The notes under the pieces: generated by a model
The model's database searches: none
What the model was told of the DNA's origin: nothing
The model's input: only the letters and a program-made list of their open reading frames with translations
Virus record (IMG/VR): IMGVR_UViG_3300040810_000461
Location: 1 to 37,727 of that record
Source: a virus
Reading direction: 5' to 3' (one strand)
Length of the DNA: 37,727 nt
Translations under genes and position numbers: made by a program
In this document: positions 302 to 27,483 of the stretch, in pieces
Layout of the letters: the number at the start of each line of letters is the position of its first letter
Position numbering within the stretch: position 1 is the first letter of the stretch

Positions 302-945
302 CGTATTTAGAAGCAGTGAATCAAGTGCTGCTACGCTTGCGTGAAGACTCCGTAAGCGACGTAACGGGTCTTGATGATCCCGTAGCGGAGATGGTCGTAG
401 CGCTTGTTAATGATGCTAAGCAAATTGTTGAAGATGCACACACGTGGAATGCGCTGCGCTCTGACTGGGCCATTGCAACCACCGCTGGCGACAACCTGTA
501 TAGCTTGACAAATGCCGGAAATTATGGTAAGATAGAGTATATCGTTAAGGACGATGGAACAGAGCTTACGGAAGAAACGCTGTACAGCTTGCGCAAACGG
601 CAAGCCGCTTCGCCTGCTGACAACAAACCAAAATATTATGCTGTTAACGGCACTGACGCTAGCGGCGACATTCAACTACAACTGTTCCCGCAACCTGACG
701 CCGTATACAACTACACCGTATATGGCTTTAAGCGTCAAGCTGAGCTAAGCGCTGCTGCTGACGTTCTTCTTGTGCCCTCTAAGCCCGTTGTGTACTTTGC
801 GCTAGCTATGGCGGCACGCGAGCGTGGCGAAGTTGGCGGTCAAACGGCAGCAGAACTCTTCACCTTGGCTAATGTGTATTTGTCAGACGCCATTGCGTGG
901 GATGCTTCGCTTAACGATCTTGACAATATCTGGATGACTGTGTAA
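298..945 (+). CDS. Tail tubular protein A-like (gp11-type) tail/adaptor protein
   Basis: A 215-residue protein resembling the T7 gp11 (tail tubular A) family. That family forms the ring joining portal to tail nozzle in podoviruses. The N-terminus has the typical helical segment (residues 1-60: LEAVNQVLLRL, then VAEMVVALVNDAKQIVEDAHTWN), followed by a beta-rich part. The length is normal for the family. The start at 298 has an upstream GAGGA and overlaps the collagen-like gene stop (ATGA). The stop overlaps the next ATG (TAATG), and that next gene is tail tubular B, the expected partner. A perfect-looking promoter lies inside the gene at 505-533. Confidence 0.85.
   Translation: MTYLEAVNQVLLRLREDSVSDVTGLDDPVAEMVVALVNDAKQIVEDAHTWNALRSDWAIATTAGDNLYSLTNAGNYGKIEYIVKDDGTELTEETLYSLRKRQAASPADNKPKYYAVNGTDASGDIQLQLFPQPDAVYNYTVYGFKRQAELSAAADVLLVPSKPVVYFALAMAARERGEVGGQTAAELFTLANVYLSDAIAWDASLNDLDNIWMTV
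505..533 (+). promoter_or_regulatory. Predicted intragenic sigma70-type promoter within tail tubular A
   Basis: TTGACA at 505-510, a 17-base spacer and TAAGAT at 528-533, preceded by TATGG, giving the extended -10 TGG-TAAGAT. This is the same architecture as the five promoters in intergenic positions elsewhere in the genome. It would feed tail tubular B and the three internal virion proteins. It lies inside coding sequence, so activity is inferred only from pattern identity. Confidence 0.6.
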
Positions 946-2657
946 TGGCGCAACAGCAACAGAACATTACGGTTAGCGCTCCGGGGTTTCAAGGGCTGAA
1001 CACGGAAGACTCTCCGCTTCAGCAAGACCCCGGCTTCTGCTCTGTGGCCGACAATGCTGTTGTAGATAAGTTTGGTCGTATTGGTTCGCGCAAAGCTTGG
1101 ACTGAGTACACGACAGGTATTAACGTTACGTACACTCCCGCTGTTGGTGTAGCTACTACGCAAGTTAAAACGCACCGCTTAGGTCAAGGTAACATTAGCG
1201 GTACTATTTACGTGCTAGCTACTGTTAGTGTTGTACAGTTTGACGCAGCGGGCGCTACGCTACAAAGCGACTACTTTATTTGCAAGCTTACCGAGTCTGC
1301 CGGTTCTGTGTATGAGCTGGACGAAGTAAGCTACCCAGCGCTTGTTGATAGCAGCAAGCTTACTGACGCTAAGATTGTTGGCTTTAACAACAGGCTGTAT
1401 ATCTTTACAGCGGGCAATGAAGCGCTTGTATATGACGGCAGTACGATTGCCAAGCTGTTTACCGGAACGGCAGACGTTGACTACATTGTGCCCCAAGATG
1501 ACACTGGCGTTATTGCTAGCGTCATCAACGGAGATGTAGCCACTGCTGCGTATGGCCGCTTGTGGGTGAGTGGCGTAGACGGCGACTACCAAACGATTTA
1601 CTACAGCGACTTGCTTAACTCTACGCAGTGGTACGATGGGCGCGCTGTGCCTGCTGATGCACAAAACACTGCTGGTGTTCTTAACGTCAACGAATACTGG
1701 CCTACGGGTATTGACCGTATCGTCGGCATTGTGGCGCACAACAACGCGTTGTTCGTCATGGGCAGGCAGTCTATCCTTGTGTACAACAACGCTGCTACGG
1801 GCGATCCTGCGGGCGCTGACGGCATCTTCTTGGCTGACGCAATCACAAGCATTGGTTGTGTAAACCGTGACGCTATCGCTGGCGTAGGCTCTGACGTACT
1901 ATTTGTTGACGACTCTGGCGTACGCTCTTTGGGCCGTACAATCCAAGAAAAGTCCGTACCGCTTGGTGACTTGACGGCTAACATCCGCCGCGACATCAGC
2001 GACGTTATTGCCGAAACGGAAGATAAGACAACCATCTCGCTATCTTACTGGCCTGACGAAAACATTGCAGTTGTTAACTTCAGCGAAAGCTTACAAGCCT
2101 ACGCTATTGAGATGCGTTCTCCTAGCGTTACTGGCGGCAATAAGGTAACGCGCTGGACCGATACGGCATGGGAGCGTGCGCTTTATTATGAAACAGCTAA
2201 CGAAGCGCGTGTGTTCCTTAGCAGCAGCGTAAGCGGCTACGGCTTATTCTTATACGAGAATGGCGTAAACTATAACGACGAAGCTTTTGAGTTTAAGTAC
2301 GAGTCTAACTCGTTTACGTTCGGCCAGCCTGCTAACCTTAAGATGCTAAAGCAGATTGACTTTACTGTTGTAACTACGCAGGCCGATGCGCAAGCGTATG
2401 CAGGCTGGGGCTATGCTGGACGCTTAGACTACTCTAAAGCTTTAACGCTAGCCGCTCAGGCCCCTGCGCTTTACAACGTGTCGTACTTTAATCAAGGCGC
2501 AGAGTACGGTCCTGGCCTATCTACCATCCGCCGCTATCGGGTTAACACTAAAGGAAACGGTGAATCTGTGATTATTGGACTACGAGCAAACATTAATGGG
2601 ACTACTTGTAGTCTTCAAGAAATCAACGTACAGACCCTCATCGGGAGGATTATCTAA
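945..2657 (+). CDS. Tail tubular protein B-like tail nozzle protein
   Basis: A 570-residue protein directly downstream of tail tubular A, the conserved order in T7-like podoviruses. The N-terminus carries the family-like pattern PGFQGLNTEDSP...FCSVADNAVVDKFGRIGSRKAW (about residues 13-52), where a nozzle protein lists ligands and defines the start of a beta-propeller-like fold. The rest is a long beta-rich body with regularly spaced Tyr/Trp strands and few charged helices. T7 gp12 is nearly 800 residues, so this is a shorter version, as in many marine podoviruses. The start overlaps the preceding stop (TAATG). It acts at the distal tail in contact with fibres. Confidence 0.8.
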   Translation: MAQQQQNITVSAPGFQGLNTEDSPLQQDPGFCSVADNAVVDKFGRIGSRKAWTEYTTGINVTYTPAVGVATTQVKTHRLGQGNISGTIYVLATVSVVQFDAAGATLQSDYFICKLTESAGSVYELDEVSYPALVDSSKLTDAKIVGFNNRLYIFTAGNEALVYDGSTIAKLFTGTADVDYIVPQDDTGVIASVINGDVATAAYGRLWVSGVDGDYQTIYYSDLLNSTQWYDGRAVPADAQNTAGVLNVNEYWPTGIDRIVGIVAHNNALFVMGRQSILVYNNAATGDPAGADGIFLADAITSIGCVNRDAIAGVGSDVLFVDDSGVRSLGRTIQEKSVPLGDLTANIRRDISDVIAETEDKTTISLSYWPDENIAVVNFSESLQAYAIEMRSPSVTGGNKVTRWTDTAWERALYYETANEARVFLSSSVSGYGLFLYENGVNYNDEAFEFKYESNSFTFGQPANLKMLKQIDFTVVTTQADAQAYAGWGYAGRLDYSKALTLAAQAPALYNVSYFNQGAEYGPGLSTIRRYRVNTKGNGESVIIGLRANINGTTCSLQEINVQTLIGRII

Positions 2658-3500
2658 ATGAGTCTTTTTAATCTGCTTGGCGCGGGCGGAGCGCTCGCTG
2701 CGGGCCTTGATATTTCAGAAGATATTCGTAGAAGCGGACAGCAAGGCGCTGAGGCTATGCGTGCGCTTGGCGAGCGCATGGGCGAAGAGACTGCCTTCCG
2801 TGGCTATGGGGTACAGACGGGCCTAGGACGCTCTCAGATTGACCCTACAGGAAGTTTGAACGTAGGCGTAGGGGCGGAGCAGGGTCTTATGGGCGGCGGT
2901 ATGGGCATGTATGGGCAGGCTCAGACGGCCCTTGAAGGAGCCCTTGGCGACACCGCAGCGCGTGAGCAAGCAATCTTTGAGCGCGCTATGGCTATGCAGA
3001 ACCCAGCGCTAGATCGCGCACAGGCTGCACAGCAAGCCCGTGAGTTTGCTATGGGCCGTGGCGGTGTACGTGGCTCACAGTTTGGTGGCACCGCTGAGGA
3101 TGCGGCTATGGCCCGTGCACGTGCTGAAGCAGCTAATACGGCAGCGTTTCAAGCGATGGGGCAGGCGCAGCAGGAAGCCATGAACCGTGCACAAATGGGT
3201 AACATTGCTGGGCAGCTTGGGTTACAAGGCTACGGCACTTCGTTTATGCCCTTACAGCAACAGCTTAACGCCCTGCAAGTTGGTCAGCAAGCGGCTAACA
3301 TGGCGCAGACTGGGCAGCTCACTGGCGCTGGCTACCTTGCACAGCTTGGCCTTGGCGGCTTGCAGTCTCAGATTAACGCTGACTTGGCCGCTGCGCAGCT
3401 CTACGGTAACTTAGTAGGCGCAGGTACGAAAGCGCTTGGCGGAATCTCTGGCAGTGGCGGTAGCATTTGGCAAGACGTTAAGCAACTGTTAGGTCTTTAA
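2658..3500 (+). CDS. Putative internal virion / ejection protein (Gln-Ala-rich)
   Basis: A 280-residue protein with a hydrophobic Gly/Ala-rich start (LFNLLGAGGALAAGLDI), then a long Ala-, Gln-, Arg-rich helical region (residues 90-250) almost without aromatics. It sits after tail tubular B, the slot of T7 gp14 and gp15 core proteins, so a role as an ejected inner-core protein is inferred from position and composition. No enzymatic motif is visible. The start at 2658 follows GGGAGGATTATCTAA, a good ribosome site, and comes immediately after the previous stop. Confidence 0.6.
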   Translation: MSLFNLLGAGGALAAGLDISEDIRRSGQQGAEAMRALGERMGEETAFRGYGVQTGLGRSQIDPTGSLNVGVGAEQGLMGGGMGMYGQAQTALEGALGDTAAREQAIFERAMAMQNPALDRAQAAQQAREFAMGRGGVRGSQFGGTAEDAAMARARAEAANTAAFQAMGQAQQEAMNRAQMGNIAGQLGLQGYGTSFMPLQQQLNALQVGQQAANMAQTGQLTGAGYLAQLGLGGLQSQINADLAAAQLYGNLVGAGTKALGGISGSGGSIWQDVKQLLGL

Positions 3501-3511
3501 GGAGCGACATC

Positions 3512-9683: not shown

Positions 9684-9810
9684 CCAGCGTTTCCAATATG
9701 ATTCTAATGCGGTGGCGGTCCTTAAGCCACATTTTGATCATACGCATTAGTGGTTTAAGCTGCTGTGGGTATGTAAGCACATGCTCTACGCGCCCTGCGG
9801 GAACTCCCAC
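9676..9810 (-). CDS. Candidate 44-residue basic micro-protein
   Basis: A frame from GTG 9810 to TAA 9676, with GGGGGAG 5-6 bases upstream of the GTG. It covers the otherwise empty 100 bases between the exonuclease and HNH genes, overlapping the former by 25 and the latter by 8 bases. The peptide is rich in basic and hydrophobic residues (LMRMIKMWLKDRHRIRIILETLDD at the C-terminus), consistent with an amphipathic helix. The interlocking overlaps mirror those of neighbouring genes and would explain how the HNH gene is translated. No family is recognised; a shorter ATG start inside it is possible. Confidence 0.5.
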   Translation of the reverse strand: MGVPAGRVEHVLTYPQQLKPLMRMIKMWLKDRHRIRIILETLDD

Positions 9811-10517
9811 AGCTCCCCCTCTCGCCTGCGAATCCATAGCTGTCTCCCTTGCCGTAGTAGCCAGTCGTCTAGTATCGCCTCCTTCTCGTCAACGCACATG
9901 CCAACCTTGTCGAATGCTTCAGAGTATACGTTGCGCACATACTGATACATTTCGGCAGCATCATACATGTCTTCGATTGGATCAAGGATTGAGCGCATAG
10001 CTTTCTGGCCCAAGCGCTTGAACAATCCGGGGATGTTGTCGGTTGCGTCTCCTGTGATTAGCTGCTTGTAAAAGAAGCGGTCTGCATCTTCGGGTGACAC
10101 GTTGAATAACTCCCTGCGTCGCCAGTTCCAGTGCCAGCCAGGAACGCCATACAGGTCTTTGTCTAGCGTTGCGATGCCGTGGCCGTGCTGACACGCCATA
10201 TAGCCAAGCTTGTCGTCTGCCTCCTCGCCTTCCACAACCTCAGCGCCCAAGGTGTCGATCATGTACTCCTTGAGCGCTGAGAAGTGTTGCGGCTTGTCGG
10301 ACTTACGGTTTCCTTTGTACGGGTAGGTGTCACAGGCGTAGTCGTGACGGTAGTTCCCCTTCCCGGTTAGGTAGATTTCGACGCCCTCCGCCTGCAATTC
10401 GACCATGATCGTTTCACAAACGGAGCGCACCGAACGACACGCAAAGGCAATGGGGTCATCCTTGGCGGCGAACGCCACGCTGTACAGAATGATGTCGCCG
10501 TCCAGACCCCAGCGCAT
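9786..10517 (-). CDS. 5'-3' exonuclease (T7 gp6 / FEN-like)
   Basis: A 243-residue FEN/PIN-type nuclease. It shows N-terminal metal Asp residues (GLDGD, 4-8), the EEADD acidic cluster (98-102), TLDKDLY (117-123), and the helix-3-turn-helix signature GDATDNIPG (156-164). T7 gp6-type enzymes remove RNA primers and degrade host DNA during replication and recombination. The start overlaps the stop of the SSB gene (TAATG), so the two are co-translated. Although short, about 240 residues, every expected metal ligand block can be seen. Confidence 0.88.
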   Translation of the reverse strand: MRWGLDGDIILYSVAFAAKDDPIAFACRSVRSVCETIMVELQAEGVEIYLTGKGNYRHDYACDTYPYKGNRKSDKPQHFSALKEYMIDTLGAEVVEGEEADDKLGYMACQHGHGIATLDKDLYGVPGWHWNWRRRELFNVSPEDADRFFYKQLITGDATDNIPGLFKRLGQKAMRSILDPIEDMYDAAEMYQYVRNVYSEAFDKVGMCVDEKEAILDDWLLRQGRQLWIRRREGELWEFPQGA

Positions 10518-10963
10518 TACAACACCTCTTCCAAAGCGCTTTCGTCTAAGCTGACTTCAGGCTTAGCCAGCTCTTCGATAGACATGCTAACTAGCGAAGG
10601 TCGAGTCACGCCGTCACGTGCCTTGTATGCCTTGATCCTAGCGCGCACTACGGTACCATACCCGATCTCGCGGGGGCTGCCCTCAAAGGGCGTCTTGCCG
10701 TCGTCTTCAAACAAGATGTTAAACTTGCCGCTGTTATCAATAGGGTACTGCGACTTGCACTCAATGAACCGACCGCGTGCGTACTTATCGTCAGGCTTTT
10801 GCTTAGTCTCCACGCCTAGCTCTTCTAGCCGCTCAACAGCACGGTCGCTAAGGTTGGTGAGCTGCACACCATACTTGCCGGTGGGTGCTTTATTGAAAAC
10901 AATCTGGTCCACCAAGGACGGAAAGCTAACGGTAGCGCGAAGTTGAACGATTTGGTTTTCCAT
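10517..10963 (-). CDS. Single-stranded DNA-binding protein (T7 gp2.5-like)
   Basis: A 148-residue protein starting at ATG 10963 behind AAGGAAC. It has an OB-like beta-rich body (residues 5-125, including GTVVRARIKAYKARDGVTRPSLVSMSIEELA) and an acidic C-terminal tail (EVSLDESALEEVL). Gp2.5-type SSBs use such a tail to contact polymerase and helicase. It has its own promoter just upstream (11010-11038) and is immediately followed by the exonuclease. The family assignment is from context and tail, since these proteins diverge fast. Confidence 0.75.
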   Translation of the reverse strand: MENQIVQLRATVSFPSLVDQIVFNKAPTGKYGVQLTNLSDRAVERLEELGVETKQKPDDKYARGRFIECKSQYPIDNSGKFNILFEDDGKTPFEGSPREIGYGTVVRARIKAYKARDGVTRPSLVSMSIEELAKPEVSLDESALEEVL

Positions 10964-11009: not shown

Positions 11010-11038
11010 ATCTTCTCATACTTTGCTTTGTTTGTCAA
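11010..11038 (-). promoter_or_regulatory. Predicted sigma70-type promoter for SSB/exonuclease genes
   Basis: On the minus strand: TTGACA (11038-11033), 17-base spacer, GAAGAT (11015-11010) preceded by TATGA, so an extended -10 (TGA-GAAGAT). The predicted start is near 11003, 40 bases upstream of the SSB ATG. The -35 begins 4 bases after the stop of the HNH-AP2 gene. Confidence 0.75.
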
Positions 11039-11041: not shown

Positions 11042-11566
11042 TTATGCGACCCTACCATGGTTAACATGAAAGCCGTACTTAACGTCTGCCGCAGCGCGGG
11101 CCGCTACTGCGTCTTCTTTGTTTTTAAAACCGCCTAAATAAAACCATTTTTTATTTGCGTATATGCGTGCCATCCAGCGCTTTGCTTTTTTGTTAAAGTA
11201 AACACCGACGTATCCTGATGTGTTGTTTTTACGAAGCGCTGCATTTTTAGAATTAGTAGCGCTATCCACCATACGAAGATTACTTATTCGGTTGTCGGAC
11301 CTATTGCCGTTAATGTGGTCGATTTCAAACATCCCCGCGTCCCAGCCAGTTGCCATTTTGTAGCAAACACGATGCGCTCTGTAACGTACGTTATCAATAC
11401 AAACAATAACGTATCCAACAGAATTGTCTACGATTCCAGCAACGTCTCCAGCTTTAGCAGTGCCTCTTCGATTGACTTTCCAGCGCAACTGTCCGGTTTG
11501 TGGGTTATAGGCCAGAAGCTCATTAAGCCTTTGGCTAGACGGCAGCATTTTAATTTTACGGTTCAT
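11042..11566 (-). CDS. HNH homing endonuclease with AP2 DNA-binding domain
   Basis: A 174-residue protein with an HNH core at about residues 80-110 (FEIDHINGNRSDNRISNLRMV and NSKNAA) and a C-terminal AP2 domain at about 115-160 (NTSGYVGVYF, WMARIYANKKWFYLGGFKNKEDAVAARAAA). This is the classic free-standing HNH-AP2 homing endonuclease, a selfish gene that cuts cognate alleles lacking it. It sits between polA and SSB, its ATG overlapping the polA stop (TGATG). It is visibly more AT-rich with longer A/T runs than its neighbours, consistent with recent transfer. It probably has no essential role in replication. Confidence 0.92.
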   Translation of the reverse strand: MNRKIKMLPSSQRLNELLAYNPQTGQLRWKVNRRGTAKAGDVAGIVDNSVGYVIVCIDNVRYRAHRVCYKMATGWDAGMFEIDHINGNRSDNRISNLRMVDSATNSKNAALRKNNTSGYVGVYFNKKAKRWMARIYANKKWFYLGGFKNKEDAVAARAAADVKYGFHVNHGRVA

Positions 11567-13206
11567 CAGTGAGTCTCGCTCCAGTTGTCTCCAATTTTGT
11601 ACTCGCCGTCCAGCGGACAGCGCAACTCTAGCGTACGTCCTGCCTCCCTTATCGCGTTACGGAACACTGCGCCTACACGCTGCGCATACTCTTCAGGCAC
11701 CTCTACCTGAAACTCATCGTGCACCTGCGCTACCAACTTGTACGGGTAGCGGTAGGTTGCTAGCTTTTGCGTAGCAATCACAAGCGCTTGCTTCATGACG
11801 ATAGCACCGGCGGATTGCAGCAAGGTGTTGAGTGCTGCATGTTCGCTGCGTATCAGCACACGGCGCCCGTCAAGTCCCGGTAAGCTACCCCCAAGCCCAT
11901 GCCTAGCCACCTTGTTGATTAGCTTCAGGAGGGCAGGTAGGCTGTCTAGGAAGCGCTGCTTAAGCTGTGCGCCCTTGCGTGACGAGCCGCCCACAATGCT
12001 CCCGATCTTGGCATCACCGGCACCGTACAGGAACGCATAGATAAACGTCTTGGCCTGCGCTCTGGTCTCTAAGCCAGCGGCCTCTTGATTGTAGGTGTGG
12101 ATGTCGCCGTTAAGGATAAGGTCCGTGTACTCTTCATCGTTCATGTAGTGGGCTAACATGCGTAGCTCAAGGCCAGAGGCGTCAATACCGACAAGCTTGC
12201 TGCCCTCAGGCACAACGAAGCATTGGCGGTACAGAGAGTCGCTGGGTATCTGTGCCATGTTAGGGCTGCTGTGCGTCATTCGGCCCGTCACGGCACCGCA
12301 GGTGTTCACATAGCCGTGGATGCGGCCATCGTCCTGCACAGCATCAAGCCAAGACTTGAGCATGGCGTAGCGCTTCTGCAGCGTAAGGTACTCAAGGACC
12401 AGCATAGCTTCCGGTACGTGTTCATTCTGCTTGAGCGTAGTCTCGTCCACCTTGGGCTTACCGCTGGGCGTGGTGTCTTTCCACACGGCGCCTTTGGCAG
12501 ACAAGCGCTCCGCTATTTGGGGGCGTGAGCCTACGTTGAACGATGTCACCTTGTCCTTCAGACGCTTGCCGGTCTTCTCAGACCAACGCTCCTCCACGAT
12601 GGGCGGGAAGATAGCCTGTAACTCCTCTTCGATTTCACGCATGCGCTGCTCATGTTCACAGTAAAGGTTGCAGGCTGTGTTGAAGTCGAAGGCGAATCCG
12701 TTAGCGACTTGCTGCTCCGTAGCCTTAGCGACAGCATGCTCAAGGTCACGGGACTGCTGGCTGAAGCCTTGCTCGTTAAGCTGGGAGTTGATGTGTTCAT
12801 ACACGTCCCAGTTAGCGCGGCAGTCTTGCAGGCAGTAGTGGATCATACTGTCCGTCAGGCCCTTGTCGAAGTCAGCTAAGTCAAACTCTTCCTTGAGTTC
12901 TTTACCGACACGCAGCGCCCAGTCCTTGAGCTTGTGTCCGCCCTCAATGGCGGGGTTGAGGAGACGGCCCAGGACTAGAGTGTCCTGAACCGCCCCGCTC
13001 CACTTCCAGCCCCAGACGCGCTCTAGGACCGGAAGGTCGAAGGCCACTAGGTTGTGACCGATGATGGTGTCAACTCCGCGTAGAGCGTCCCATAATGCGG
13101 ATGACGTGGTGCAGGACACGGCTTCGTTCCGATCGGGTAGGTACACGCCCGCCATCCAGATCATGTCGTGGGCTAGGTTCGTTTCGATGTCCAATACTGC
13201 TTTCAT
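11566..13206 (-). CDS. polA: Family A DNA polymerase (T7-like) with 3'-5' exonuclease
   Basis: A 546-residue replicative polymerase. The exonuclease domain has DIE (6-8), HNLVAFD (51-57) and YCLQD (124-128). The polymerase domain has motif A GIDASGLELRM (340-350), motif B R382..K386..Y390..Y394, and motif C HDE (496-498). The residue equivalent to E. coli position 762 is Tyr390, as in T7, a state usually linked with lytic phages. It is shorter than T7 polymerase (704), and I see no obvious thioredoxin-binding insertion. The ATG at 13206 follows a run of five G. It lies downstream of its own promoter and leader gene. Confidence 0.95.
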   Translation of the reverse strand: MKAVLDIETNLAHDMIWMAGVYLPDRNEAVSCTTSSALWDALRGVDTIIGHNLVAFDLPVLERVWGWKWSGAVQDTLVLGRLLNPAIEGGHKLKDWALRVGKELKEEFDLADFDKGLTDSMIHYCLQDCRANWDVYEHINSQLNEQGFSQQSRDLEHAVAKATEQQVANGFAFDFNTACNLYCEHEQRMREIEEELQAIFPPIVEERWSEKTGKRLKDKVTSFNVGSRPQIAERLSAKGAVWKDTTPSGKPKVDETTLKQNEHVPEAMLVLEYLTLQKRYAMLKSWLDAVQDDGRIHGYVNTCGAVTGRMTHSSPNMAQIPSDSLYRQCFVVPEGSKLVGIDASGLELRMLAHYMNDEEYTDLILNGDIHTYNQEAAGLETRAQAKTFIYAFLYGAGDAKIGSIVGGSSRKGAQLKQRFLDSLPALLKLINKVARHGLGGSLPGLDGRRVLIRSEHAALNTLLQSAGAIVMKQALVIATQKLATYRYPYKLVAQVHDEFQVEVPEEYAQRVGAVFRNAIREAGRTLELRCPLDGEYKIGDNWSETH

Positions 13207-13376: not shown

Positions 13377-13406
13377 ATCTTACCATACGGAGCGGGGGTG
13401 TGTCAA
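13377..13406 (-). promoter_or_regulatory. Predicted sigma70-type promoter for polA
   Basis: Minus strand: TTGACA (13406-13401), 18-base spacer, TAAGAT (13382-13377) preceded by TATGG (extended -10). The -35 overlaps the TGA stop codon of the RNR gene. Downstream are the leader gene and polA. Confidence 0.8.
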
Positions 13407-15313
13407 GCCCCAGAGCCTACAACTTCACAAACACCGCCAGTGCAAGCAAGCTCTTGGCTTCCGGTGGTGGTGTCGCCACGCTCAAAGGCAGGCAGAGCAG
13501 CCCAGTCAATCTCAGGCATGTGAGCTGACAGCTCCTTGTACTCCTGCTCCGTAAGCTCCTGATAGGGCGCCTGACGGTACGTGCCGTTGTCGTAGGGCAA
13601 CAGGCTGATACCGGACATGATGTCCCAGTTGTCCCAAATCCACTGGCATACAGCGAAGAATTCGTCTTCCTTGTAGTACACAGTGATGGACGGCTTGTGT
13701 TCGCACCAGTGCAACTGATACTGCTTCCAGACTTCAAGCTGTCCGATAGCGCCAACATCGTTACGGAAGATGGAGGTCTTCGGTGCTTCAATCGGGAAGC
13801 TGAACACGGTGGTGGTGTCAGGCTTCATGACGCACGCCTCATACGGTACACCCTGAGCGCGCAGGAAGTCCGTCATCGGGTCTTTGTTGTCCTGGCGTAC
13901 CGTGCGTACGTAGTACCGTGAGTAGTTAGGGTGGATGCCTGACGCACACAGCGCAAGCTGACTCACCGTACCGCTTGGCTTAACGCACGTGATGGCAGCA
14001 GCAGGGTTGATGTCAAGGCTCTCAGCCCACTGCTTGTTCACGTTGATGGCACGCTCACGCATGACGGTCAGCCACTCTTCAAGCTTCTTGTTACCCTTGC
14101 TGCCGTTAAGCACGGGGTGGTCCATGAGGCCCGTCAAGCTGACGCCAAGCAGCGCTTCCTCCTCGCAGTTCTTCTTCCACACAGAGCGCAGGTAGCGGAA
14201 GTTGGTGAGCGTAGCTTGCAGCGTACCGAAAGCCGTGGCGATCTCAACCTTCTCCAGAAGTTGGTCAAGCGTATCGGTGGAGCGTACAATCACTTCGCTC
14301 AAGTTGCAGAACTCAGCAGGGCGCAGGAGGATTTCGCTGCACGGATTACACCCAAAGGCTGCGGTGTTGTCACGCCGTCCGTTACGCCCCGCAATGTTGC
14401 GTGCTGCTTCCCGTGAGAAGATGCCACGCTCACCTGAATAGCTTTCATACAAAGCTTTCATCTCGCTCATGAAGAACGGGAAGTCAGGCTTCTCGTCATA
14501 AACTGCGCTGTTGTTAGCCAAGGCACGCTGGCCGTTCTGGTTCCACCACTGTCCAGACTTAGCCGCCTGCATGCGGTCAGACACAGGGCTGGACAGGCTG
14601 ATAAGTGCACTGCGGCGCACGCCGCCCACCACCACGATCTCAGCGATCTTACAGCAGATGTCATGGCACTCTAGGTCCGTGAGCTTACGGCCAGCAGCGC
14701 CCTTGAACACGTCCACAAGGAAGCGGTGCAGGTCTTCCAGCGGCTCCGGCCCAGACGCCCTGCCACCAAAGGTCTTGAGCCGTGCGCCAGCGGGGCGGAC
14801 TTGGGAGTAGTCAAGCTTGGGCACCTCGCCAGCGTAGAGCATGGCGATTAGCTGCCGCGTACTCTTAGCCCAGCCAATCTTGCTGTCCGCTACGACAATC
14901 GTGGTGTCCGTATCGGCAAACTCTTCGGCCACGACGGGCAGCTTCTTAACTTCCTCACGCTCTACGCTGAAGCCTACGCCCGTGCCGCAGAGCAGGATGT
15001 ACATCAGCTCGTCAAAGGCTTTCGGGTCATTGATGGCAAGGTAGGCGCAGTTAAAGCCAGCCACGTTGTCACGGTCCAGCGCAGGGCCTGCCGTCATGAG
15101 AGCGCGCATGCTGGGTACTACGTCAAGGTCATGGATAGCTTTCTTGAAGCGCGTGGCTTCGTTGCTGCTGACCATGCCCTTGTCTTTCCAGTAGTTGACG
15201 TAGCGGTTAACCGTCTCGTCCCACGTCTCGCGGCGCTGCTCGTCCTCCAGCCAGCGAGCGTACCGGCTCGCATGAATGAAGGCGCTGTAGCTTGGATTGC
15301 TTGTCGGAATCAT
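13403..15313 (-). CDS. nrdJ: Class II (adenosylcobalamin-dependent) ribonucleoside-triphosphate reductase
   Basis: A 636-residue monomeric class II RNR, making deoxynucleotides from ribonucleotides with coenzyme B12 and no oxygen requirement. Key residues match the Lactobacillus leichmannii enzyme: C89 (C119), radical C325 in NPCSEI (C408) with E327 (E410), C336 in EFCNLSE (C419), and the C-terminal redox pair C624/C629 (C731/C736). It depends on cobalamin that the phage does not make, so the host must synthesise or import it. The ATG at 15313 follows AAAGGAG. The stop overlaps the -35 of the polA promoter. Confidence 0.95.
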   Translation of the reverse strand: MIPTSNPSYSAFIHASRYARWLEDEQRRETWDETVNRYVNYWKDKGMVSSNEATRFKKAIHDLDVVPSMRALMTAGPALDRDNVAGFNCAYLAINDPKAFDELMYILLCGTGVGFSVEREEVKKLPVVAEEFADTDTTIVVADSKIGWAKSTRQLIAMLYAGEVPKLDYSQVRPAGARLKTFGGRASGPEPLEDLHRFLVDVFKGAAGRKLTDLECHDICCKIAEIVVVGGVRRSALISLSSPVSDRMQAAKSGQWWNQNGQRALANNSAVYDEKPDFPFFMSEMKALYESYSGERGIFSREAARNIAGRNGRRDNTAAFGCNPCSEILLRPAEFCNLSEVIVRSTDTLDQLLEKVEIATAFGTLQATLTNFRYLRSVWKKNCEEEALLGVSLTGLMDHPVLNGSKGNKKLEEWLTVMRERAINVNKQWAESLDINPAAAITCVKPSGTVSQLALCASGIHPNYSRYYVRTVRQDNKDPMTDFLRAQGVPYEACVMKPDTTTVFSFPIEAPKTSIFRNDVGAIGQLEVWKQYQLHWCEHKPSITVYYKEDEFFAVCQWIWDNWDIMSGISLLPYDNGTYRQAPYQELTEQEYKELSAHMPEIDWAALPAFERGDTTTGSQELACTGGVCEVVGSGA

Positions 15314-15428
15314 TTACTTCTCCTTTGTTGAAATACATACGTTCTAACTTATCTAGCTTCTTAGACACTTGGTCTAACAATCTTTCCAGCTCCTCGACAC
15401 GAAGCGCTGAGGCTGAGCGGGGACGCAT
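15207..15428 (-). CDS. Small coiled-coil protein overlapping the RNR start
   Basis: A 73-residue frame from ATG 15428 behind GGAGGAATTAGG, overlapping the DUF1289 gene upstream (55 bases) and the RNR 5' end (107 bases). Residues 8-32 (ALRVEELERLLDQVSKKLDKLERM) form an evident amphipathic helix or coiled coil; the remainder is basic. The strong ribosome site and central position in the chain support translation, while the long overlap with RNR in another frame makes the C-terminal half doubtful. No family is recognised. Confidence 0.5.
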   Translation of the reverse strand: MRPRSASALRVEELERLLDQVSKKLDKLERMYFNKGEVNDSDKQSKLQRLHSCEPVRSLAGGRAAPRDVGRDG

Positions 15429-15562
15429 CCTAATTCCTCCATAATTTGTTCACGTTCTGCGTCAGTGTAGCGACGCCACATGACAATCTGCTCTTTGGTT
15501 CTACCGCAGCCAGTGCATACGTCCCCCTCCAACTCACACTCGCTGCGACACGGCGACTTCAC
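15374..15562 (-). CDS. DUF1289 family Cys-rich protein
   Basis: A 62-residue protein starting at GTG 15562, behind GGAGGAAGCACT and overlapping the primase-helicase stop as GTGA. It carries the DUF1289 pattern: SPC at the start, then C5, C9, C16 and C19 in VCTGCGRT, followed by a WRRYTDAEREQIM helix. Bacterial DUF1289 proteins are small, probably metal-binding and of unknown function, usually found on proteobacterial chromosomes. Its place between primase-helicase and RNR suggests an accessory role in replication or nucleotide supply, but this is only context. Confidence 0.85.
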   Translation of the reverse strand: MKSPCRSECELEGDVCTGCGRTKEQIVMWRRYTDAEREQIMEELGCVPAQPQRFVSRSWKDC

Positions 15563-17223
15563 AGTGCTTCCTCCTCCGGTGGCGTGTAATCAGACAGACG
15601 CCCTGTGTCCATGTTGTACAGCAGGTGGCCCGCTGGTCCGGTGATGCCGCTGAAGCGGTTCTTCAGCACACGTATGTGCGTGGTGTTGCGCTCCGTTGGG
15701 TCTTCAGCTTGGCCGTTACGCTCCAAGCCAATCACAAAGTCACTGAGCTGAGCAATGGACGCTGAGCCCCGTAGCTGTGCGACTGACGTAACGGCCCCTT
15801 CCTCGTGGCCCTTACCGTCAGGGCGCTTGAGGTGAGACACAGCGAACAGCACAATGCCTGTGTCCTGGGTTAGCGTACGCAGCTTCGTCATGATCTCGTC
15901 AAGGGCCTTGCGTTCATCACCATGCTGCCCTGCCGACACCAAGATACTGATGTGGTCAAGGACAATGACGTTGCAGTCAAGCGCCTTTGCCATGAAGCGT
16001 ACACGGGACACGACATCATCAACGCTAGCGCCTGTGTCGAAGCTGGCGTCCATGATGAACAGCCTGTCGTCCCCATACACCCGCTCATAGGCGTCTAAAT
16101 AGTCCTGTGAGCCGCGCACCACCCTGCTGATGGGCAGGTGTAGCGGGGTGTCTAGATCGACGCTCATGAAGCCCTCAGCGGTGCGCTCGACGCTCTCTTC
16201 CATGAACAGACAGCCGATGCGATTGCTGGTGGTGTTCTTCACGTGCATTACGATTTCACGCAGGATGCTAGACTTGCCCAACCCGCTACCTGCTGCGATG
16301 GTGATCAGCTCCGTAGGACGAAAGCCATAGGTTAGTTCATTTAGCTTAGTCCAGGGGTACTCGCCAAGGCAAGGCGGACGCGGTGCTAGCAGGCGTTCAA
16401 GCAGCTCCTCCTTCGACAGCACACCCTTCGGCGTATAGATTGAGGCTTGCCAGTAGGCATCCGTAAACTCCTTCTTACGGCCAGCCTTCAGGTAGTCACA
16501 AGCGTCCTTGCCAAGCCGTGCGTCAAGCTTCATGACACGCAGCTTACCTGCGAACACTTCCGCTGCCTTCTCGACAGCTTCCTTGCCCGCACTGTCAGCG
16601 TCAAAGCACAAGACGATTTCGTCGAAGCCGTCAAGGAACTTATACGCTGCCTTGAAGTCTTTACCTGCGCTGCCAGCGCCGTTCTTCAGGGACACAACAG
16701 CAGCTTTGTTATCAAACATTTGGCTAGCCGCTAGCGCGTCAAGCTCACCCTCAGTGACCACAATGCGTCGCTGCTGGTGGTTGCCGTAGCGCTGCTGTCC
16801 GAAAAGCCCTGCGTCTTTGGTGTTACCAACAGAGATAAAGCCTTTGGTCGATACGGTGCGTACCTTGAAGCCTATCGGCTCTGCGCTTTCTTCGCTGAAG
16901 TAGGGGTAGTAGTGCTTATCACCATCCACTACGACACCGTATAGCTTGGCGTAAGTGGACGTTATGCTGCGCTCTGGGATGCTAGAGGCAGGCGCTGCGG
17001 CCCACTTAGCGACTAAGCGCTCCAGCTCTAGGTCTTTAGTTAGTGCAACCTCCATGCGTGGCCTCTCGTAGTGGGTTTCGTAAGGTGTTTTTGGCGCTGC
17101 TGTCGGTGTCTGACAAGCGAAGCAGTAGTAGCTGCCGTCACTGTACTCTGCGTTGGCGTCGCTGCTACCACAAGCGTCACACGCTACGTGTCTTACAAAC
17201 TTTGCCTTGTCCGTTGTGTACAT
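15559..17223 (-). CDS. Primase-helicase (T7 gp4-like)
   Basis: A 554-residue bifunctional protein. A zinc finger (C15, C18, C34, C37) recognises primase sites. The TOPRIM primase domain has EGE (158-160) and DAD (208-210). The RecA-like hexameric helicase has Walker A GSGLGKSS (312-319), catalytic Glu in MEES (341-344), Walker B VIVLDH (419-424), and a Gly/Ser arginine-finger region near 485-535. The length equals T7 gp4 (566). The ATG at 17223 has GGAGG upstream and lies only about 18 bases from the predicted transcript start of its own promoter. It works with PolA and SSB at the fork. Confidence 0.95.
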   Translation of the reverse strand: MYTTDKAKFVRHVACDACGSSDANAEYSDGSYYCFACQTPTAAPKTPYETHYERPRMEVALTKDLELERLVAKWAAAPASSIPERSITSTYAKLYGVVVDGDKHYYPYFSEESAEPIGFKVRTVSTKGFISVGNTKDAGLFGQQRYGNHQQRRIVVTEGELDALAASQMFDNKAAVVSLKNGAGSAGKDFKAAYKFLDGFDEIVLCFDADSAGKEAVEKAAEVFAGKLRVMKLDARLGKDACDYLKAGRKKEFTDAYWQASIYTPKGVLSKEELLERLLAPRPPCLGEYPWTKLNELTYGFRPTELITIAAGSGLGKSSILREIVMHVKNTTSNRIGCLFMEESVERTAEGFMSVDLDTPLHLPISRVVRGSQDYLDAYERVYGDDRLFIMDASFDTGASVDDVVSRVRFMAKALDCNVIVLDHISILVSAGQHGDERKALDEIMTKLRTLTQDTGIVLFAVSHLKRPDGKGHEEGAVTSVAQLRGSASIAQLSDFVIGLERNGQAEDPTERNTTHIRVLKNRFSGITGPAGHLLYNMDTGRLSDYTPPEEEAL

Positions 17224-17247: not shown

Positions 17248-17276
17248 ATCTTACCATATTTTTCGATCATTGTCAA
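17248..17276 (-). promoter_or_regulatory. Predicted sigma70-type promoter for primase-helicase
   Basis: Minus strand: TTGACA (17276-17271), 17-base spacer, TAAGAT (17253-17248) preceded by TATGG (extended -10). The -35 contains the TGA stop of the upstream small gene. The leader is very short, leaving just the GGAGG ribosome site before the ATG at 17223. Confidence 0.85.
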
Positions 17277-17431
17277 CTCTCTATCATGGACAATAGTAGG
17301 TTCACCACACTTTCTCCATACTCTTTTGCTATGTCGCGCATTGCAACCTCGGTGTCTGTCTCCGGGTTTGAGAGGTAGTAGTACAGCTCCTCCAGTTCCG
17401 GCTTCGTTATGTGGTCATATTGATTCGTCAT
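17273..17431 (-). CDS. Hypothetical small helical protein
   Basis: A 52-residue acidic protein starting at ATG 17431 behind GGAGGACG. It is mainly helical (KPELEELYYYLSNPETDTEVAMRDIAKEYGESVVNLLLSMI). It overlaps the preceding gene by 17 bases, and its stop codon is embedded in the -35 of the primase-helicase promoter. No family is recognised. It is the last of the small early genes. Confidence 0.65.
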   Translation of the reverse strand: MTNQYDHITKPELEELYYYLSNPETDTEVAMRDIAKEYGESVVNLLLSMIES

Positions 17432-17813
17432 CGTCCTCCCCGTCTTCTTCCGGCTCCCACTCGACAAAGAAGTCAAGCTCTTTACGGGAGCGTAGCGGCC
17501 CGTCTCCGGCCATGTAGCGCTCCTCCCCGTCCACGTTGGCGTAGTCCCCGTGCGTGCGGGAGAGGAGACTGTAGCGCGCCTCACGGCTAACATCAATCAT
17601 GTCCCACGAATTGTAGCCGCTGTCCATCTGCTGTTCCAGGTCACGCATTGCAGATTCACGGTCACGGCGGGCTTCACGTTCGATGTTATGCTGGCGGTAC
17701 TGCTCAGGCGTTATTGCCTGGGTCACGCCGCCCCTCGCTGCAAACTCTGCTATGTCGGCGGCGAGCTTGCGGCGCAGCGCTTCCTTCTCCTCAAGCGGTG
17801 TGTGTATTGTCAT
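17415..17813 (-). CDS. Hypothetical acidic protein
   Basis: A 132-residue protein starting at ATG 17813, where ATGA overlaps the upstream stop; GGAGGG lies 11 bases upstream. The N-terminal third is a charged helix (EEKEALRRKLAADIAEFAARGG), and Arg/Glu-rich helices follow (NIEREARRDRESAMRDLEQQM). The C-terminus is strikingly acidic (EWEPEEDGEDDDESI). Such tails can mimic DNA or contact polymerases, but there is no direct evidence here. It lies in the early block. Confidence 0.65.
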   Translation of the reverse strand: MTIHTPLEEKEALRRKLAADIAEFAARGGVTQAITPEQYRQHNIEREARRDRESAMRDLEQQMDSGYNSWDMIDVSREARYSLLSRTHGDYANVDGEERYMAGDGPLRSRKELDFFVEWEPEEDGEDDDESI

Positions 17814-18609: not shown

Positions 18610-18842
18610 TTCACTACCTCCCAGCGCTCTACGGTTTCATGCACTGCGCCCCAATTGGCAGGCAGTGAGATTTCGTTACGCAGCGAACCTTCACGCCTGT
18701 CCTGCTTCCACTTCACCAATTCCTCCATGCGCTTTTGGTACGGCTCGCCGTTCTTCAGGTAGCGGCAGCACTCAACGCGGCGGTGCTGCAAGTTAATGCC
18801 TAGCGTTAAGTACCGTTGAAGCTCTGTCGCGAACGTCACCAC
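18606..18842 (-). CDS. Hypothetical basic early protein
   Basis: A 78-residue protein from GTG 18842, behind GGAGGGTGT. It is basic (LQHRRVECCRYLKNGEPYQKRMEELVKWKQDRREG), then turns hydrophobic with Trp residues. It overlaps the repeat-protein gene by 7 bases and the next gene by 4 (ATGA). A second GTG directly follows the first, so the start could be one codon later. No function is known. Confidence 0.6.
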   Translation of the reverse strand: MVTFATELQRYLTLGINLQHRRVECCRYLKNGEPYQKRMEELVKWKQDRREGSLRNEISLPANWGAVHETVERWEVVK

Positions 18843-19147
18843 ACACCCTCCACAGCGTCAAGGTATTCTTCATGCGTTGTCCCGTGGTTGCTCCAGATTT
18901 TGCCGTATACGCTGCCTCGGACGCTGCCGTGGACGCTGCCCCATATACTGCCCCACAGGTGTCCCCATACGTTGCCGCGTATGCTGCATCGGACGCTGCC
19001 CCATACGTTGCCATGAACGCTGCCCCACACGTTGCCCATTACGTTGCCTCGGACGCTGCCCTTAACTTCTGAGACAAACAGCTTACCGTGCCTGTCACGC
19101 TCAAACTCTACAAGCTCTAGCATTTCCTTAATCGTTGGCGCTTTCAC
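18836..19147 (-). CDS. Tetrapeptide-repeat (G-x-V-x) protein, possible beta-helix
   Basis: A 103-residue protein from GTG 19147 (GTGA overlap with the upstream stop). Residues 30-85 are about fourteen near-perfect tetrapeptides of the form G-[NSH]-[VIL]-[WRHMY], for example GNVWGSVHGNVW. Regular spacing of Val/Ile every four residues with Gly and Trp predicts a small beta-helix or beta-roll. The N-terminal 28 residues are an acidic helix and the last 20 an acidic/aromatic cap. The 12-base DNA repeat also creates long spurious frames on the other strand. Phage proteins with GxVxGxV tracts are common but uncharacterised. Confidence 0.7.
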   Translation of the reverse strand: MKAPTIKEMLELVEFERDRHGKLFVSEVKGSVRGNVMGNVWGSVHGNVWGSVRCSIRGNVWGHLWGSIWGSVHGSVRGSVYGKIWSNHGTTHEEYLDAVEGVW

Positions 19148-21444: not shown

Positions 21445-21610
21445 GAGGGCCTGTCTAGGCGGCTGTCGATGGGGGGTGCTGCTCAGCTTTGCAAAAAGTA
21501 ACTTTTGAGTATCCAAGTGGATACAAAATGCAACACTTTGCACACAACCAAACTGCCCGCAACGCCCCATAACGCCTGCAAATTGTACAAAAAGTGATCA
21601 ATTTGGAAAA

Positions 21611-21682
21611 CTGCATGCGCCGTAGCGCTCTGCATGGGCCGCTACGCTACCTTTTAAGCAACTGCATGGGCCGTTAAGCTAC
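21611..21682 (+). repeat. Three iteron-like repeats CTGCATGSGCCG...
   Basis: Copies at 21611-21629, 21630-21650 and 21662-21682 share CTGCATG(G/C)GCCG followed by TAGCGCT, CTACGCTAC or TTAAGCTAC. The last two are 32 bases apart and share the preceding context. They end 17 bases upstream of the -35 of the terS promoter, so they could bind a regulator of the late arm or an initiator. Confidence 0.65.
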
Positions 21683-21699: not shown

Positions 21700-21728
21700 T
21701 TGACTTTTGCTTTAAAATATGATAAGAT
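21700..21728 (+). promoter_or_regulatory. Predicted sigma70-type promoter for the late (plus) arm
   Basis: TTGACT (21700-21705), 17-base spacer, TAAGAT (21723-21728) with TATGA before it (extended -10). The 19 bases AAAATATGATAAGATATAT are shared exactly with the promoter at 27455-27483. The predicted start is near 21735, about 159 bases before terS. Confidence 0.85.
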
Positions 21729-21893: not shown

Positions 21894-22283
21894 ATGGCGG
21901 ATAAGCCCGTAGCGAAGCGCGGTCGCCCCTCCAAAGCGGCACTCCAATCGACAAAAGATTTGAGTAAAAGACAGCAGGCGGCAGCATTAAAGGAGTTTAG
22001 GGCTAGATTGCTGCTAAACCCTAAGTCACCTGCGTTAATAGAGAAGTTGTTTGATATAGCTTTTGATGATGAGCATAAGCAGCAAGCCGTAGCGATGAAG
22101 CTTTTAGCTGATCGCCTTATGCCCGTAGCTGGCTTTACAGCAGACGGCAAGCAGCAAGCTCAAGTTAGCATTAACATTAGTGGTATTGGTGTACCGTCTG
22201 GGTCGGTTACTGTTGAAAACGCTGCCGATGATGTTGAAGACGGGGACTATGAGGAGCTGTATGAGTCGGAAAATGGAGCGTAA
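21894..22283 (+). CDS. terS: Terminase small subunit (putative)
   Basis: A 129-residue protein immediately upstream of the terminase large subunit. It starts at ATG 21894 behind GAGG 10 bases away; an ATG at 21885 abuts that same GAGG and is unlikely. The N-terminus is basic (KPVAKRGRPSKAAL, an AT-hook-like RGRP), followed by helices (KRQQAAALKEFRARLLLNPKSPALIEKLFDIAFDDEHKQQAVAMKLLADRLMP) and a C-terminal acidic tail (DDVEDGDYEELYESENGA) that would contact TerL. Small subunits recognise the packaging site; the gene has a long structured leader. Confidence 0.75.
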   Translation: MADKPVAKRGRPSKAALQSTKDLSKRQQAAALKEFRARLLLNPKSPALIEKLFDIAFDDEHKQQAVAMKLLADRLMPVAGFTADGKQQAQVSINISGIGVPSGSVTVENAADDVEDGDYEELYESENGA

Positions 22284-25635: not shown

Positions 25636-26667
25636 ATGGCTTCTGATCTAGCGCTCCTCGCATTAGTTAAGAAAATGGATGGCTTCACAGGTCCGCAAGG
25701 GCCTGCTGGAGCGCCTGGGCCGTCTGGGCCGCAAGGCCCTGCTGGAACACTTGGCCCTCAAGGGCCTGCCGGTAAAGACGGACGTGACGGTAAAGCTGGA
25801 CCGCCTGGGCCAATTGGGCCACAAGGCCCTCAAGGGCCTAGCGGCGCGGACGGAGCAGCTGGCGCTGACGGTCAGGACGGTGTAGGCGTTGAAAGCGCCT
25901 ATATTGCCGCTGACGGCTCGTTAGTCTTTACCCTTACGGACGGTAGCGAGGTAGACGTAGGAGCGCTTACAGAGCTTCTGGGAGCGTCTGAGGGCAATAC
26001 GTACGTACTGGGACAGTCTCAGGGCAGCGGCGCTATAACAGAAGCAACATCCTTAAACGTCCCCGGCTCTGGTGGCGCTACGTCTTGGAATGACGTTGAA
26101 GGTACGATTAACTTTCCACTAAGCGCTGAAGTAACGCTAGAGCTTGGGCAAGAAGAGTTATTTTATTCTAAAGCCTCTGAAGCAATTAGTAAAGGCGAAG
26201 TTGTTATGTTTGCTGGCGCTCAAGGCGACCACTTGTTAATCCGCAAAGCTGACATAACGGTTACGGGCTTTCGTCAAGAGTGGGTTATTGGCGTAGCTCA
26301 TCAAGACTTTGACAATAACGAGTTTGGGTACGTTACGTCTTTTGGTAAAGTTCGTAACATTGATACGCTGGCGTTTAACGAAGGTGACCTTTTATGGCTA
26401 TCTGTTACGACGCCTGGAGCGCTTACTAACGTAGAGCCCGCAAAACCTAACTGCCCTGTGCTTGTTGCTGCCGTAACGCGCTCACACCAAAACCAAGGCA
26501 CGATCTTTGTACGCCCCTCTACTACCAAGAAGTTGCAAGAGCTGTGCGATGTGTCAAGCGCTACGCCAAACGATGGCGACATATTAGCGTGGGATGCAGC
26601 GACTGGCACCTGGAAACCAATAGCGCCGGTCTTCCCGGCACTGTATGGCGTAACAACCTACCCGTAA
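25636..26667 (+). CDS. Collagen-like virion protein 1
   Basis: A 343-residue protein behind AGGAGCAATAAGCT. Residues 16-80 are about 21 Gly-X-Y triplets ([15 protein letters not shown]..., then [10 protein letters not shown]), followed by short strands and a C-terminal domain (about 180-300) with [36 protein letters not shown]. That reads like a head-decoration or fibre domain and is known after collagen tracts in phages. Triple-helical stalks make trimers. Position between portal and scaffold suggests a head or connector fibre. Confidence 0.8.
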
Positions 26668-26680
26668 CTAGGAGTAAACT

Positions 26681-26812
26681 ATGAAACCCTGCGCATCCTG
26701 TCCGTCCCCTGCTAAGTGCAAGAAGGCTGGTAAGTGCCTGAAGCGCGCTGGCGCAGCGGCCCGTACCAAAGCTAAGCGCACGACGCGGAGCATGAAACGT
26801 GGCAGCTACTAA
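26681..26812 (+). CDS. 43-residue Cys/Lys-rich micro-protein
   Basis: A 43-residue protein behind TAGGAGTAAACT. It is very basic and has four Cys in the first 19 residues (KPCASCPSPAKCKKAGKCLKR), a possible zinc-binding knuckle, then an Ala/Arg/Lys tail (ARTKAKRTTRSMKRGSY). It is the first of four consecutive small basic proteins between the collagen-like gene and the scaffold operon. Nucleic-acid binding is likely from composition only. Confidence 0.7.
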   Translation: MKPCASCPSPAKCKKAGKCLKRAGAAARTKAKRTTRSMKRGSY

Positions 26813-26954
26813 GAAGTCGCCCACGCCAAAGAACAAAGCGTTGTACGCAAAGGTTAAAGCAGAGGCTAAGCGTAAGTTTGACGTTTGGCCGTCCGCGTAT
26901 GCTAGCGGCTGGCTAACCAAAGAGTACAAAAAGCGAGGAGGCACTTATGCCTAA
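26799..26954 (+). CDS. 51-residue basic protein (KFDVWPSAYASGWLTKEYKKRGG type)
   Basis: Starts at GTG 26799 with GCGGAG 9 bases upstream, inside the end of the previous gene (14-base overlap), and ends at TAA 26954, overlapping the next ATG by 8 bases. The pattern SPTPKNKALYAKVKAEAKRKFDV, then PSAYASGWLTKEYKKRGG is one I recognise as recurrent in marine phages and some large viruses, with no known function. About 30% of residues are Lys or Arg. Too short for most gene finders. Confidence 0.75.
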   Translation: MAATKKSPTPKNKALYAKVKAEAKRKFDVWPSAYASGWLTKEYKKRGGTYA

Positions 26955-27201
26955 CAAGCCTAAGGGCGGTTTGACTAAATGGTTTAAGGAGGACTGGCGC
27001 GACCTTAAGACCGGCGAGAAGTGTGGCCGTTCTGGTAAGGACAAAAAGAAGCGCCCGTATCCGTCATGCCGCCCGAAGGCCGTGGCAGACAAAATGACTG
27101 CTGCTGAGAAGCGCTCGTCTACTAAGCGCAAGACTAGCAGCAAGCCAATTAAGCACGCCGTCACGGCTTCTGGCCGCAGGAGAAAGCGCAATGCCAAATA
27201 A
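26947..27201 (+). CDS. DUF5872-like basic protein
   Basis: An 84-residue protein with ATG 26947 behind GCGAGGAGGCACTT. It has the DUF5872-type core GGLTKWFKEDWRDLKTGEKCGRSG, then KRPYPSCRPKAVADKMTAAEK and a Lys/Arg/Ser tail ending GRRRKRNAK. Two Cys in CGRSG and SCRP could bind metal. The family is found in phages and giant viruses with unknown function. It overlaps the next gene by 11 bases, so the four basic genes form one translational unit. Confidence 0.8.
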   Translation: MPNKPKGGLTKWFKEDWRDLKTGEKCGRSGKDKKKRPYPSCRPKAVADKMTAAEKRSSTKRKTSSKPIKHAVTASGRRRKRNAK

Positions 27202-27451
27202 ACGTACGCCTGCTAAGGGCAAGGCGAAGGTCAAGATTACCGCTAGTGGGCGCAAAGTGTCGTATGGGCAAGCGGGGCAGGCCAAAGGTGGCGGACCGCG
27301 TGTACGCCCTGGCACGTCCAAAGGTGACGCGTACTGCGCACGTAGCGCTGGGCAAATGAAAAGCCACCCCAAAGCAGCCAAAGACCCTAACAGCCCGCTA
27401 CGGCTAAGCCGCAAGCGCTGGAAGTGCAGCGGAACTAAGAGTCGAAAATAG
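27191..27451 (+). CDS. DUF6321-like basic protein
   Basis: An 86-residue protein with ATG 27191 behind CAGGAGAAAGCGCA. The sequence KVKITASGRKVSYGQAGQAKGGG, GTSKGDAYCARSAGQMK and AAKDPNSPLRLSRKRWKCSG matches the DUF6321 pattern as I know it. It is strongly basic with one Cys in YCARS and one in KWKCSG. Function is unknown. It ends 3 bases before the -35 of the next promoter, so the group of basic genes belongs to the upstream packaging transcript. Confidence 0.8.
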   Translation: MPNKRTPAKGKAKVKITASGRKVSYGQAGQAKGGGPRVRPGTSKGDAYCARSAGQMKSHPKAAKDPNSPLRLSRKRWKCSGTKSRK

Positions 27452-27454
27452 GAC

Positions 27455-27483
27455 TTGACATTTAGTTCAAAATATGATAAGAT
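27455..27483 (+). promoter_or_regulatory. Predicted sigma70-type promoter for the scaffold/capsid operon
   Basis: TTGACA (27455-27460), 17-base spacer, TAAGAT (27478-27483) preceded by TATGA (extended -10). It shares 19 bases exactly with the terS promoter. The predicted start is near 27490, 36 bases before the first small gene. This would boost capsid expression above that of the terminase. Confidence 0.88.

Follow-up and report, generated by a model that had tools for sequence, protein, structure and literature searches.

We analysed one IMG/VR virus record of 37,727 base pairs (bp), referred to below as the window, for a set of six predicted promoters, designated A to F. The leftward sites D, C and E precede the primase, the polymerase and a group made up of the open reading frame (ORF) 10963-10517 and the exonuclease gene, and the rightward sites B, F and A precede packaging, capsid and tail genes. 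We judge the six to be a real set of host RNA polymerase (RNAP) promoters under concerted selection, and we found that their -10 hexamer, rather than being invariant, represents a genome-wide dialect that switches between relatives. All six are present at the positions and on the strands given in the original prediction:

505..533, plus strand: site A, TTGACA-N12-TATGG-TAAGAT, within the tail gene 298-945 and 5' of the next tail gene (945-2657)
21700..21728, plus strand: site B, TTGACT-N12-TATGA-TAAGAT, 5' of the terS-like ORF (21894), terL and portal
27455..27483, plus strand: site F, TTGACA-N12-TATGA-TAAGAT, 5' of a scaffold-like ORF and the major capsid gene (29046)
11010..11038, minus strand: site E, TTGACA-N12-TATGA-GAAGAT, 5' of ORF 10963-10517 and the exonuclease gene
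13377..13406, minus strand: site C, TTGACA-N13-TATGG-TAAGAT, between the ribonucleotide reductase and DNA polymerase genes
17248..17276, minus strand: site D, TTGACA-N12-TATGG-TAAGAT, 25 bp 5' of the primase-helicase start codon

The consensus of the six sites, TTGACW-N12/13-TRTGN-TAAGAT, is that of an extended -10 promoter of the sigma70 type. The -35 hexamer is TTGACA at five sites and TTGACT at one, the spacer between -35 and -10 is 17 at five sites and 18 at the site at 13406, TGn lies directly 5' of the -10 in 6/6 sites (as TATGA or TATGG), and the -10 hexamer is TAAGAT five times and GAAGAT once (site E, with G at -10 position 1). The sequence TATGNNAAGAT has 6 copies in the 37,727 bp, confined to the six sites, and TGNTAAGAT has 5. 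The claim that two sites have 19 bases in common is exact, the sites at 21700 and 27455 (B and F) being identical over precisely 19 consecutive bases. The conserved bases coincide with the -35, TG and -10 elements at correct spacing, without an extra palindrome or box, and the first plausible start lies 25 bp beyond the -10 for D, 98-171 for C, 47 for E, 166 for B and 43 for F. A terminator scan of the window gave no excess over shuffles.

With a position weight matrix (PWM) of the six sites, the sites themselves score 28.5-30.7 bits, while the runner-up in the genome scores 14.5. In 100 first-order Markov shuffles, the comparison that the original prediction had named as its own refutation test, the maximum was 19.3 and no match occurred at the lowest site score. 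When the matrix was built in leave-one-out fashion, each site stayed in the top six among 75,374 positions. A scan with a generic sigma70 consensus gave counts barely above those of shuffles and would not by itself have revealed the six-site set, which is the point in favor of chance matches to a promoter consensus; the 14-bit PWM gap, the shuffles, the leave-one-out ranks and the orthologous conservation nevertheless reduce the probability of that explanation to practically nil.

Relatives were fetched from IMG/VR by scans with the primase, terL, tail, polA and a SutA-like protein introduced below; a megablast of 50,697 public phage records gave no match to the window, and the primase, terL and capsid relatives among public phages are <60% identical. 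At orthologous sites in the relatives, the majority base reaches 0.95-1.00 in the -35 and 0.88-0.96 in the stretch from TRTGN through the -10, and only 0.61-0.93 in the spacers. Orthologs of site B lie ∼600 bp 5' of terL, those of site D lie at the same distance from the primase as in the window, and site F likewise has orthologs. Site C orthologs mostly read TATGG-TAAGAT or CATGA-TAAAAT, and the -10 of site E orthologs begins with G whichever the dialect (GAAGAT/GAAAAT). The relative G020, with 62% primase identity, has three sites of the form TTGACN-N12/13-TRTGC-TATAAT, including one within the tail gene at the position orthologous to site A; as this version carries the textbook -10, the class can be assigned to sigma70 extended -10 promoters, which supports the earlier claim that the sites serve the host polymerase. 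A scan of viral contigs for the pattern TTGAC-N13-TATGRTAAGAT found at least 119 stretches and, among the matches listed, more than one copy per stretch only in the group of the window (L113 with 3, L010 with 2); single matches elsewhere are probably background. As a lead on the host, the phage contig L432 (JAAENL010000372.1; related to the window, primase 66% and ribonucleotide reductase 73%) was binned in a Halieaceae metagenome-assembled genome, which is weak evidence on host; the same assembled genome has two proteins with the SutA RNAP-binding domain (RBD).

The statement that no phage RNAP is recognizable was upheld by a search for the T7-type enzyme (PF00940), which found none in the window and did find it in the controls P60 and CRP-171; T7-type RNAP promoters were rejected on this ground. 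A search for sigma70 region 2 (PF04542) found none in the window or the six genomes searched and was positive in 10 control bacteria, a highly diverged sigma being possible. Among the best 25 of 41 families in a Pfam scan of the 51 window proteins, there was no regulator family and no helix-turn-helix protein. T4-type middle promoters (MotA/AsiA), in which a MotA box stands in place of a good -35, were rejected as well, the canonical -35 TTGACA/T being present at all six sites.

The fourth base of the -10 is uniform within each genome: in 23/23 distinct relatives, a count covering the core clade records with two or more sites, it is either always G (TAAGAT) or always A (TAAAAT). The G dialect comprises the window, G001, G002, G009, L010, L344, L230, L418, L421 and c195, and the A dialect comprises G005, G007, G008, L076, L232, L234, L235, L227, L342, L346, L424, L427 and c507, where c195 (L314 and L341) and c507 (L302 and L352) each join two overlapping loci of one contig. 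Permutation, with kinship ignored, gave a mean of 7.4 uniform records, and the highest count among 20,000 permutations was 15. The weight of the dialect result lies in the scattered sites, the gene mosaicism and the repeated switching and not in this permutation value. More distant relatives use other hexamers: the two sites of L330/L331 read TAGAAT, the two of L247 read TACAAT, and L243 and L268 have two TATAAT sites apiece. TAAGAT had been called invariant, which holds within the window genome only, as sister genomes have TAAAAT at all sites. The concerted change of the hexamer between relatives strongly supports selection on its exact sequence, but TAAGAT itself has no special standing, its place being taken in relatives by TAAAAT, TATAAT, TAGAAT and TACAAT.

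Site A follows the dialect from inside a coding sequence. The pattern TTGAC-N12-TATGG-TAA[AG]AT is present in every close tail-gene ortholog examined, and the synonymous Lys codon (AAG or AAA) that it contains tracks the dialect of the genome, with the tail site agreeing with the other site in 9/9 records that have another. A tail-gene tree built with the site columns removed needs six dialect changes, of which at least four are forced by well-supported branches; judged by the tail gene, the dialect has thus switched repeatedly. Between G008 and L183, a tail-gene stretch has 4 differences in 134 bp, the dialect base among them. The residue encoded across the -10 shifts with the hexamer, being Lys in the core clade and specified by ATA, ACA and AGA codons in G020, G021 and L330, which suggests that the promoter constrains the sequence of the tail protein.

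Among 22 gene trees, compared on differing row sets, 19 need 2-5 dialect changes, and the primase needs two. The tree of one small gene, located directly 5' of the primase, needs a single change (19 rows), and the branches that separate the dialects are 100% supported on both sides. This split of its alleles with the dialect is suggestive, not proof, of a link to the promoters. Nearly all relatives whose sequence extends far enough in this region keep the gene directly 5' of the primase; in the window it lies as follows:

17415..17813, minus strand: SutA-like protein, 132 amino acids, just 5' of the primase, with a SutA-RBD-like stretch at 17727-17789 and an acidic C-terminal tail

Its start was placed at the internal Met where the homology of the relatives begins, the presumed initiation codon. 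PF20661, the SutA RBD, has one match in 20/20 records, the window included, and 11/20 exceed the Pfam cut-off; scans of single proteins gave 8.9e-9 for G017, 3.3e-7 for G012 and 3.8e-7 for G020, all above the cut-off. When a 14-member profile was compared with the PDB, SutA (7f0r_G) was the sole significant match, with an E value of 8.6e-5 on the RBD, the next being 0.46. The SutA RBD grips the beta protrusion via K60, R64, L67, M71, F74, L75, G78, G79, V81 and I84 (He et al., PMC9300723). The corresponding residues are K R L I F A G G T I in the window and K R L T F L G G I L in G012, each 7/10 identical when the alignment is judged by eye. In an AlphaFold model that is weak overall (predicted local distance difference test [pLDDT] score, 62), helix 7-26 (pLDDT ∼85) aligns with SutA helix 57-76. 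The RBD-like stretch begins near residue 7-10 and the acidic stretch is C terminal; neither the acidic N-terminal region of SutA nor its wedge loop was found, and by architecture the phage protein is SutA-like and not a SutA. We found no description of a phage SutA-like protein in the open-access literature and no PF20661 match in six isolate phages with related primases; tblastn matches to it in T5-like phages (E ∼2) were on inspection an unrelated small protein. Six PHROG families of unknown function (23871, 9129, 5249, 15231, 18837 and 14822) match the SutA-RBD-like stretch weakly (E, 0.001-0.5), and such domains may be more widely spread in phages.

With a probability somewhat under one half (roughly 0.45), we propose that the six promoters form one regulon, that one trans-acting partner sets their -10 core, and that this partner is the phage SutA-like protein. 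In this model, a host sigma70-type RNAP would read the six extended -10 promoters, the leftward sites driving the replication genes (primase/ribonucleotide reductase, polA and the exonuclease group) and the rightward sites driving packaging, capsid and tail genes. A single trans-acting partner would impose one -10 core, and a change of partner would lead all sites to change. The SutA RBD approaches sigma3.1 with its C-terminal end, and SutA aids promoter unwinding (He et al., PMC9300723). Two points make the SutA-like protein our leading candidate: the end of the SutA RBD points to sigma3.1, beside the extended -10, and the alleles of the phage gene divide along dialect lines. The N-terminal helix and GG motif would attach the protein to the beta protrusion of RNAP, and its C-terminal extension would lie close to the part of the promoter complex in which the TG element and the -10 undergo recognition and melting. 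Once the early phase is over, the protein would favor those phage promoters that match its own dialect. The original prediction had invoked a particular host sigma or a tuned promoter strength, and we regard a phage RNAP-binding protein as a better candidate for the partner than either. The boldest part of the proposal, that a beta-anchored SutA-type protein reads the extended -10/-10 via its C-terminal extension and that its divergence rewrote the same base genome-wide on repeated occasions, we consider rather doubtful.

Several observations weigh against this proposal. With only 17.1 bits, the window copy falls short of the PF20661 cut-off (29.3), and the acidic N-terminal region that SutA needs for activation is not N terminal in the phage protein. 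No ability to read DNA sequence is known for SutA. The trees of the terS-like (14 rows) and endoVII/HNH (9 rows) genes also need a single dialect change, and the SutA-like gene lies close to site D, so that linkage may contribute to its split. The tail-site test comprises only two independent pairs on supported branches (sign test, p 0.5), and distant relatives are partly nonuniform, G012 having TAAAAT and TACAAT and G020 having one TACTAT.

The main rival is host adaptation, wherein the two dialects suit the RNAP or sigma of two host lineages and the SutA-like protein is a fellow traveller instead of a reader; we hold it to be unlikely on balance, while taking it seriously. A protein that presumably touches host RNAP should adapt to a new host too, and other host-facing genes have been swapped as well, the lysozyme being found mainly in the G dialect. 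The lysis cassette, which looked dialect specific at first, is not strictly so, however, as L316 is an A record with a G-type lysozyme, and L183 and L321 are G records that carry the A-dialect holin-like gene. Furthermore, the -10 positions that differ, the third and fourth, are among those least read by known sigma70 proteins, a candidate early promoter of the G-dialect genomes has A as its fourth -10 base, and both dialects occur within one metagenome, since G005 (A) and L010 (G) both bear sample number 3300025853.

Two further explanations strike us as improbable, to a similar degree. The dialect could be the binding code of another phage DNA-binding protein, a repressor or activator for which the -10 region is the operator. 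Many scattered sites that vary with one phage protein are documented for stoperators (PMC6550527), and many of the small early proteins have no known function; against this stand the failure to find a helix-turn-helix protein among the best 25 of 41 families in the Pfam scan and the coincidence of the conserved bases with promoter elements alone. Alternatively, no trans-acting selection may be at work, the dialects being inherited, rarely switched states that whole-module recombination keeps together by descent. The genomes are indeed mosaic and the records related, such that permutation tests overstate significance, and the small number of independent pairs for the tail-site switch fits as well. 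Yet six scattered sites change together, one of them synonymously within the tail gene, while most genes (2-5 changes) do not follow, and near-identical tail stretches differ at the dialect base, as in the comparison of G008 with L183.

The set had also been described as phage-wide, running every module, which is overstated because the early leftward genes (∼17.9-21.2 kb) have no site of the six-site class. For this region, we predict a different promoter:

21582..21609, minus strand: candidate early leftward promoter, TTTCCA-N16-TACAAT, differing from the six-site class

The sequence of this candidate is kept in relatives of both dialects. Just 5' of it, between the divergent promoters, lie three direct copies of CGGC(C/G)CATGCAG (21610-21673, minus strand), largely kept in relatives of both dialects, which are possible iterons or an operator. 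A small early protein (18836-19147, minus strand) has a short-period repeat of the GxVxG type, and similar proteins occur in A-dialect relatives.

The remaining genes around the sites, most of them assigned with PHROGs and Pfam, are as follows:

298-945, plus strand: tail gene, phrog_10775, holding the site at 505
945-2657: second tail-module gene, PHROGs/Pfam
9786-10517: exonuclease, PHROGs/Pfam
11042-11566: HNH/endoVII-like gene, PHROGs/Pfam
11566-13206: DNA polymerase, PHROGs/Pfam
13403-15313: ribonucleotide reductase, PHROGs/Pfam
15374-15562, minus strand: DUF1289 protein (E, 2.2e-14), between the ribonucleotide reductase and primase genes
15559-17223: primase-helicase, PHROGs/Pfam
21894-22283: terS candidate, 3' of the site at 21700
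22335, 23632, 29046 and 35245 (start positions): terL, portal, capsid and lysozyme, PHROGs/Pfam

The sites had been placed directly 5' of functional units, terS among them. This needs amendment for the site at 505, which sits in the tail gene and not at terS, while the terS candidate does follow the site at 21700. The label of single-stranded-DNA-binding protein (SSB) for ORF 10517-10963 could not be confirmed. The record also contains a 127-bp exact terminal repeat (1-127 and 37601-37727), located in a gene of collagen-like (Gly-Pro-X) repeats that crosses the join of the record, and a 9-bp tandem array at 37137-37690.

A concerted -10 switch between close relatives is a natural experiment. 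It predicts one trans-acting reader, points to a candidate for it and provides matched natural promoter pairs differing by one base. If our proposal holds, phage SutA-like RNAP-binding proteins would be promoter-specificity factors, the phage would gain a private promoter dialect on the host polymerase in a new way, with neither a sigma factor nor its own polymerase, and the dialect would offer a sequence-based way to spot such regulons in uncultured phages.

How phages that have neither a polymerase nor a sigma factor steer the host RNAP from early to later transcription is an old question, for which T5 is named as an example (PMC7472727). According to the same source, the T5 early protein gpT5.026 binds RNAP beta (1-151 and 703-795) and brings about the early-to-late change in transcription from host sigma70 promoters, and a mechanism of this general kind therefore exists. 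T5 differs in that its record has no PF20661 match, the sequence of gpT5.026 is unrelated as far as tested, and we found no promoter dialect described for it. The P. aeruginosa (Pseudomonas aeruginosa) SutA (PF20661; PDB 7f0r, 7xl3 and 7xl4) resembles the phage protein in the helix, the GG and apparently most of the residues at the beta-protrusion interface; the latter, unlike SutA, is phage encoded, with the RBD-like stretch N terminal, the acidic stretch C terminal and a long middle region added. With respect to the promoters, bacterial sigma70 extended -10 promoters (TTGACA-N17-TATAAT with TGn) have the same hexamers, a spacer of 17 (18 once here) and, as TRTGn here, the TG element beside the -10, whereas -10 positions 3 and 4 are fixed as AG throughout the window genome and change together to AA, TA, GA or CA in relatives. 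LUZ24/PaP3-like phages such as tf (PMC3517423) likewise have several sigma70 promoters for host RNAP on both strands, but those of tf were matched to the general sigma70 consensus, and we found no description there of a uniform -10 core that switches between clades. The stoperators of cluster A mycobacteriophages (PMC6550527) are alike in being many sites, spread over the genome, that vary with one phage protein; they are, however, 13-bp repressor sites, whereas the sites in the window are complete promoters.

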